DNA of 64,000 bases from Acidobacteriota bacterium (lineage in GTDB: Bacteria; Acidobacteriota; Terriglobia; Acidiferrales; UBA7541), in NCBI GenBank assembly GCA_021788095.1, contig JAJYLB010000003.1:62001-126000 (forward strand), in the 5' to 3' direction. The position numbers were made by a program, and so were the translations under genes. Under the pieces are notes generated by a model, which searched no databases, had not been told where the DNA came from, and worked only from the letters and a program-made list of their open reading frames with translations. This document shows, in pieces, positions 586-2,154 of this stretch (position 1 is the first letter of the stretch; each line of letters opens with the position of its first letter).

Positions 586-1407
586 ATGCCGCTAAAAAGC
601 TTCAAACCCTATACCGCTTCGCGCCGGTTCCTGACGGTGCTCGACAAGAGCGAGATCACCAAGGACCGGCCGGAAAAGAATCTGCTCGAGCCGCTCGCGC
701 GCTCGGGCGGCAGGAACAATCACGGCGAAATCACCTCCTGGCACCGTGGCGGGGGCCACAAGAAGATGTACCGGCGGATCGACTTCCGACGGGACAAAGT
801 GGGAGTGCCGGCGCGCGTGGCGGCGGTGGAATACGATCCCAACCGGTCGTCTCTGGTGGCGCTGCTGCACTACGCCGATGGAGACAAACGCTACATTCTC
901 CGGCCGCTGGGACTGGAGGTCGGGATGACGGTGGTGAGCGGGCCGGAGGCGGACATCCTGCCCGGCAACTCGCTGCCGCTGCGGAATATTCCTCCCGGCA
1001 CGCTGGTCCACAACATCGAGTTGTACCCAGGCCGCGGCGGGCAGATGGTGCGGGCGGCGGGCTCGGCGGCGCAACTGCTGAGCAAGGAAGGCGATTTCGC
1101 GCTGCTGAAACTGCCTTCGGGCGAAGTGCGGCGGGTGCGGGTGGAATGCACGGCGACCGTAGGGCAGGTGGGGAACGTCGATCACGAGAATGTGACGTTA
1201 GGCAAGGCCGGCCGGTCGCGCTGGCTGGGGATACGGCCGACGGTGCGCGGCGTGGCGATGAATCCGGTCGACCATCCGCACGGCGGCGGTGAGGGCCGAG
1301 TCAAAGGGAACCATCCGCAAACGCCATGGGGCCAGCCGACGCTGGGGGCGAAGACGCGCCGGCGTTCGCAAGGCCAGCAATATATCGTGCAGCGGCGGAA
1401 GCCCTGA
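586..1407 (+). CDS. rplB: 50S ribosomal protein L2
   Basis: 273 residues, full length. The N-terminal [15 protein letters not shown], the RNA-binding [19 protein letters not shown] and the C-terminal [20 protein letters not shown] are hallmark L2 segments. The histidine-containing HPHGGGEG loop lies near the peptidyl transferase centre. The gene ends with the expected YIVQRRKP, so it is complete. rpsS normally follows directly, but here a 366-bp stretch intervenes that holds a further open reading frame (see next entry). Confidence 0.98.
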
Positions 1408-1427
1408 CGGGCCGACAGGAAGCGTCG

Positions 1428-1763
1428 ATGAGCTTGGCGAGAAGAGAGACGAAGCGAAGAGGGATCGGGACGGCGCGAAGGCGCGAAGGCGCCCGGCGCC
1501 GGAGCGGCCGGCGGGCCGCGGCTCGGCTCAGAGGGAAAGCGCCGGTGACGGCGAAGGGCCGGGTGCAAACGGGACCGCCGACGGTGCTGTTCCGGGTGTG
1601 CAAATCGGGCTGGGCGGTGCTGACCGAGAAAGTGCCGAGCGCTCCCGACACGCGTTTCGTTTGTCCGTTTTGCCCGCGATCTCACCGGGTGCCGGGGCCG
1701 GTGCGCGGATTTCGCCGGGTGCGGCGGCCGCAATGGCTGAAGCTGCACCGGGTGCTGGAGTAA
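1428..1763 (+). CDS. unidentified basic protein with a CPFC motif, between rplB and rpsS
   Basis: I do not recognise this 111-residue protein. The start ATG at 1428 has AGGAAG about 6 bases upstream, and the stop lies 10 bp before the rpsS ATG, so the gene fits the operon exactly. The first 40 residues are very Arg-rich ([17 protein letters not shown]). The second half looks folded: [17 protein letters not shown], then [10 protein letters not shown] and a tail [12 protein letters not shown]. Three cysteines and nearby histidines could form a zinc site, but only one CxxC pair is present. Codon use is G/C-rich at third positions like the neighbours, which favours a real gene. An rRNA-binding or ribosome-associated role is inference from context only. 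The ORF track extends it upstream into rplB, but the RBS supports the inner start. Confidence 0.65.
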
Positions 1764-1773
1764 GGAACCTTTC

Positions 1774-2154
1774 ATGCCGCGCTCACTAAAGAAGGGACCG
1801 TTCGTGGATGAGCCGCTACGGGAGAAGGTGGAAGCGCTCAACTCGAGCAACGAGAAGAAGGTGGTGAAGACCTGGTCGCGGCGATCGACCATCGTGCCGG
1901 ATATGATCGGGCACACCATCGCCGTGCATAACGGGAAGAAGTTCATTCCCGTGTACATCACCGAACAGATGGTGGGGCACAAACTCGGGGAATTTTCGCC
2001 GACGCGCAGTTTCCGCGGGCACGCCGTGCACGCCGCGCTGGAAAAGGCGGCGGCGCTGGCCGGCGCGCCAGGCGCGCCAGTGGCGCCGGGCGGGCCGGGC
2101 GCGCCGGTGAAGGCGCCGGCGGGCGGCGGAACGCCGGGCGGAGGCCAGGGGTAA
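1774..2154 (+). CDS. rpsS: 30S ribosomal protein S19 with a Pro/Ala/Gly-rich tail
   Basis: Residues 1-90 are a normal S19: [44 protein letters not shown] and [17 protein letters not shown]19 contacts the head of the 30S subunit and the A-site tRNA together with S13. The protein is 126 aa, about 35 longer than the usual 92, because of the low-complexity tail [20 protein letters not shown]. The DNA of the tail contains repeated ggcgcgcc units, suggesting growth by slippage. The rplV ATG follows after three bases. Confidence 0.97.

Follow-up and report, generated by a model that had tools for sequence, protein, structure and literature searches.

Within the 64-kb stretch of DNA analysed here (the window), through which the S10, spc and alpha operons all continue, an additional open reading frame, designated X, occupies a position between two ribosomal protein genes that lie side by side almost always in bacteria. 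The upstream gene, rplB, ends at 1407 and the downstream gene, rpsS, starts at 1774, leaving a 366-bp gap in which X runs on the forward strand from an ATG at 1428, 20 nt after rplB, to a TAA at 1763, stopping 10 bp upstream of rpsS and encoding 111 residues. The genes for L23, L2 and S19 beside it are assigned with certainty by Pfam and NCBIfam together, and the features of the locus are as follows.

586 to 1407, forward strand: rplB (uL2), the upstream neighbour of X (TIGR01171, 419.8 bits)
1417 to 1422, forward strand: Shine-Dalgarno-like AGGAAG, 5 nt before the X ATG, from reading of the sequence
1428 to 1763, forward strand: gene X, encoding a 111-aa basic protein of a new family; intact frame, conserved locus
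1428 to 1583, forward strand: N-terminal tail, residues 1-52, rich in R, A, P and K, variable in length and predicted to be disordered
1584 to 1760, forward strand: C-terminal domain, residues 53-111, the conserved core with five predicted beta strands
1599 to 1601, forward strand: codon of C58, a candidate metal ligand invariant in alignments of 77 and 69 sequences
1662 to 1685, forward strand: C79-P-F-C82-P-R-S-H86, a candidate metal knuckle whose three ligands (C79, C82 and H86) are invariant
1774 to 2154, forward strand: rpsS (uS19), the downstream neighbour of X (TIGR01050, 146.7 bits)

Re-reading of the sequence bears out the coordinates of X, the 366-bp gap, the 10-bp spacing to rpsS and the ribosome-binding site given in a preliminary description of this DNA, and the two peptide stretches quoted there are both present in the X translation, whose tryptic peptides include LCKPGWAVIVEK and VPGPVR. 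The G/C-rich third positions, described there as resembling those of the neighbours, correspond to a GC3 of 0.79 for X vs 0.82-0.89 for rplB, rpsS and rplV. The length of the frame is by itself no proof of a gene, because G+C content is high and a mechanical ORF list holds an antisense ORF of 396 aa that overlaps the X locus; since 111 open codons are weak evidence at the G+C content of the window, the reality of X rests on its conservation across genomes.

A tblastn-like search of 61 genomes returned strong, stop-free matches to X (E 1e-22 or better, 48-76% identity) in 33 of 37 members of the family Ca. Acidiferrales/UBA7541, Acidobacteriota subdivision 2 (hereafter the family), and no credible match outside it. 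A C-terminal-domain profile detected X at E < 1e-34 in 65 of the 72 family genomes contained in a 299-genome sample of the class. The X-less family genomes, seven of the class sample plus two of those searched first, are in all nine cases also without rpsS, and are attributed to assembly gaps in which the corresponding contig is absent; all family genomes are drafts and nearly all are metagenome-derived. By this comparison, every family member whose assembly covers the spot carries X. At each of the 30 family loci of the first search the gene is flanked by rplB and rpsS and shares their strand, ending 4-126 bp, mostly 4-36 bp, ahead of rpsS, and most orthologous starts are preceded by a purine-rich stretch. 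Searching 85,462 species genomes with exact motifs, by which distant relatives would be missed, yielded 77 X loci with titles naming Acidobacteria 'gp2', Ca. Acidiferrales and Ca. Acidiferrum typicum UBA7541, as well as a few mislabelled MAGs, and the rplB-X-rpsS order recurs in nearly all of them. MAGs titled Bacillota, Betaproteobacteria and Acidipila (L046, L079 and L094) carry X beside rplB and rpsS of the Ca. Acidiferrales family and are probably mislabelled members of it. X is present twice, on separate contigs, in the family genomes G227 (C33 and C35) and G288 (C34 and C63), which are likely to be mixed bins given the ~4% contamination of both.

Outside the family, X is absent at all 21 Terriglobia loci from genomes with rpsS, a set that includes both other families of the order and in which the rplB-rpsS gap measures -4 to 130 bp. 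A 396-genome sample of Acidobacteriota contained no credible homologue, returning only the genome of the window itself and two trivial matches, and none was found in phages, plasmids or PHROGs. Weak matches in G080, G052/G078 and G339 were rejected as chance similarities that were short or without cysteines after re-scoring. The preliminary designation of X as lineage-specific is therefore upheld, the gene being family-wide and absent beyond the family, of which it constitutes a clean marker. The parsimonious reading of these genomes is a single gain in the family ancestor followed by no observed loss.

Conservation of the frame extends to its coding signature. None of the 77 loci has a stop in the X frame, whereas the remaining five frames are each interrupted in 34-77 loci. 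Within the C-terminal domain, mean pairwise differences at codon positions 1, 2 and 3 amount to 0.16, 0.13 and 0.47, respectively, and omega (Nei-Gojobori, close pairs) is ~0-0.14 over the final 59 residues for every listed pair except one, in which synonymous changes are almost lacking. In the N-terminal tail, omega ranges over ~0.15-1.1 in nearly all listed pairs. Absence of a conserved frame in relatives, or its disruption by indels, had been named at the outset as the mark of spacer DNA, and dN/dS as a further check; the X frame survived the former, and the latter indicates purifying selection on the domain. From the codon-level pattern, constraint acts on the X protein and not on an RNA element. 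That the locus might be spacer DNA kept open by high G+C, or have the antisense strand as its only coding strand, draws on the abundance of long spurious ORFs here and on the overlapping 396-aa ORF, but the stop-free X frame among broken alternatives, the third-position bias of changes and an omega near 0 in the domain refute this reading by locus comparison and leave it with practically no probability.

Across the 77 loci X measures 97-149 aa and consists of two dissimilar parts. The tail, composed of 21% R, 20% A, 11% P and 9% K, carries a net charge of +9 to +28 in the family (median +14), and residues 1-46 are predicted with pLDDT <50 in an AlphaFold model of the full chain, consistent with a disordered tail. 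The C-terminal domain carries +9 to +11 (~+10) and, when modelled alone, features five strands at a mean pLDDT of 84.7 and a pTM of 0.67. C58, C79, C82 and H86 are invariant in both alignments, in the pattern C-x20-C-x2-C-x3-H, and strands are predicted around these sites, so that X presents the four potential ligands expected of a zinc ribbon. Two CxxC or CxxC-like knuckles were not found: X has a single CxxC, its other site is a lone Cys, and the His lies four residues after C82. Zinc binding, raised as a possibility in the preliminary description, is consistent with these four residues, and the domain is probably zinc-stabilised, with C58, C79, C82 and H86 as putative ligands.

Searches for known relatives gave no significant match to X in Pfam, NCBIfam or PHROG, ribosomal families included, and none among PDB profiles, where the best, L37a (eL43), reached E = 0.03 over 20 residues at VCPFC. 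Foldseek comparison of the predicted domain with the PDB gave a best E of 3.2 and no hit at or below 0.001, and nothing significant was obtained against BFVD. The Elf1 zinc ribbon (PF05129) and DUF7836 (PF25206) share with X a CPFC knuckle placed after a strand, but scores lie at ~13 bits, with cut-offs at 29.8 and 26.7, respectively, and the second CxxC is missing in X; membership in Elf1 itself was rejected at 12.2 bits vs the gathering cut-off of 29.8. By these scores, the L37a and Elf1 similarities are leads, not membership. No mention of an rplB-X-rpsS insertion was found in the literature, and on the evidence of these searches X is an undescribed protein family.

The resemblance to Elf1, a transcription-elongation zinc ribbon that is among the weak best profile similarities (E 0.05-1.6), together with the location of X inside the operon, would suit an RNA-binding regulator of the S10 operon that acts on its mRNA or nascent transcript, or a link between transcription and translation, in either case off the ribosome. 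We consider such a role improbable, as the similarity spans 17-20 residues at the VCPFC knuckle, falls short of all cut-offs and does not include the second CxxC, and no Rfam element is present in the window.

Several properties point instead to the ribosome. Translation of X with the S10-operon proteins, proposed in the preliminary description, is strongly indicated by its position, strand and tight spacing, as well as by the absence of any promoter- or terminator-like match between 1200 and 2200 around the gene. Operon position alone is no proof of ribosomal function, because the non-ribosomal secY, adk, map and rpoA share these operons. X combines a conserved ribosomal locus and family-wide presence, with absence outside, with a small, strongly basic and slowly evolving product: mean identity within the family is 81% for the X domain, 80% for L2, 86% for the S19 core and 71% for the L22 core, and X distances correlate with S19 distances (r = 0.77). 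Values for S3 were left out of this comparison because its loci are truncated. We infer ribosome association of X from its place in the operon, its charge, its rate of evolution and its family-wide presence, and its size, its universality in the family and its combination of a Cys/His domain with a basic tail lead us to favour, as reasonably probable, a lineage-specific accessory ribosomal protein that resides on the ribosome. Against residence stand the lack of any ribosomal protein recognisably related to X by sequence or fold and the lack of a family-specific rRNA insertion for X to bind. No such insertion was found in 16S rRNA, where a single 1-nt difference separates eight family from five outgroup sequences, or in a partial sampling of 23S rRNA beyond one 3-nt difference; with no family-specific rRNA expansion, X, if ribosomal, must bind ordinary rRNA or proteins.

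Separately from these comparisons, the 23S rRNA gene of the genome to which the window belongs (G000:C78 16178-18460; L144 and L162), located outside the window, contains at E. coli position 1931/1932 an insert of ~0.6 kb for which RF00028, the group I intron model, gives 52.8 bits. G031 (L161) likewise has one (63.5 bits), and G163 (L155) has an insert of similar size at the same site. Among the neighbouring proteins, S19 (1774-2154) ends in an Ala/Gly/Pro-rich C-terminal tail that is not family-specific, total lengths being 103-126 aa in the family and 92-133 aa in other Terriglobia, and L22 (2158-2685) bears a long Lys/Arg-rich C-terminal extension, with 175 aa here, a family median of 170 and an outgroup median of 130.

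The absence of an accompanying rRNA expansion speaks for a ribosome assembly or translation factor that binds pre-ribosomal particles, L2 or S19 transiently and substoichiometrically. The basic character of X, its zinc-ribbon-like motif and its location beside possible clients also agree with such a factor, which we regard as unlikely but the most serious of the alternatives: the rate of X is near-identical to that of core ribosomal proteins and its long tail resembles those that thread into rRNA, both of which residents fit better, and no enzymatic or factor domain was detected. A gain inside the S10 operon could also offset a loss elsewhere, with X replacing a ribosomal protein that the family no longer has. 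This is highly improbable, since L28, L31, L32 and S21 are encoded in 10 of 10 family genomes, L33 is too (one copy being cut by a contig start), and the genes for L36, L30, S14, L17, S4 and S13 lie in the window, in a check of part of the ribosomal protein set. The first five occur in the family and its sisters alike. With all of these proteins retained, X has probably been added to the set and does not stand in for a lost member.

Residence on the ribosome can be cast as a model in which X would have been inserted once between rplB and rpsS in the ancestor of Ca. Acidiferrales/UBA7541 and would be made from the S10 operon message along with L2 and S19. Its compact C-terminal beta domain would be held by one zinc at C58, C79, C82 and H86 and may dock on rRNA via an invariant Arg/Lys/Trp surface that includes the RRxxW and LRRV motifs, with the disordered R/K/A/P tail threading into rRNA grooves, so that X would join the normal protein set as a near-stoichiometric component of the ribosome. 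Co-translation, zinc binding, RNA binding and ribosome residence are what we infer here from gene sequences. The full form of this proposal, in which X is an obligate, zinc-stabilised additional subunit of the ribosomes of the whole family, acquired once, with no relative elsewhere and absent from solved ribosomes, appears to us evenly poised between right and wrong.

The set of ribosomal proteins is mostly taken to be invariable, and the few additions known from particular lineages came to light by chance when ribosomes of cultured species were imaged by cryo-EM. In the present case a fixed ribosomal addition, throughout a soil lineage that is for the most part uncultured, is indicated by comparative genomics alone. 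If true, X gives the ribosomes of the family a permanent extra subunit encoded in one of the most conserved bacterial operons, and provides a directly testable case of a new protein joining the ribosome; such proteins can be found by looking through core ribosomal operons for conserved insertions.

Among known systems, zinc-binding ribosomal proteins (eL43/L37a, bL36, bL31, Zn-type uL24, uS14 and uS4) are, like X, small and basic with a Cys/His pattern, but X differs in its C-x20-C-x2-C-x3-H spacing, with one single-Cys site and one CxxC, and is distinct from bL36, uL24, uS14 and bL31, all four of which are separately present. Similar in kind are the lineage-limited ribosomal proteins recognised through cryo-EM: the accessory bL37 of Actinobacteria (PMC5876184), and bS22 and bL38 of Borrelia, the latter also found in Flavobacterium (PMC10618245). 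As proposed for X, these proteins are small and lineage-restricted, supplement a standard ribosome and escape ordinary annotation (PMC5876184, PMC10618245). X is unrelated to them in sequence and differs in its length of 97-149 aa, its predicted folded Cys/His domain and its S10 operon locus.
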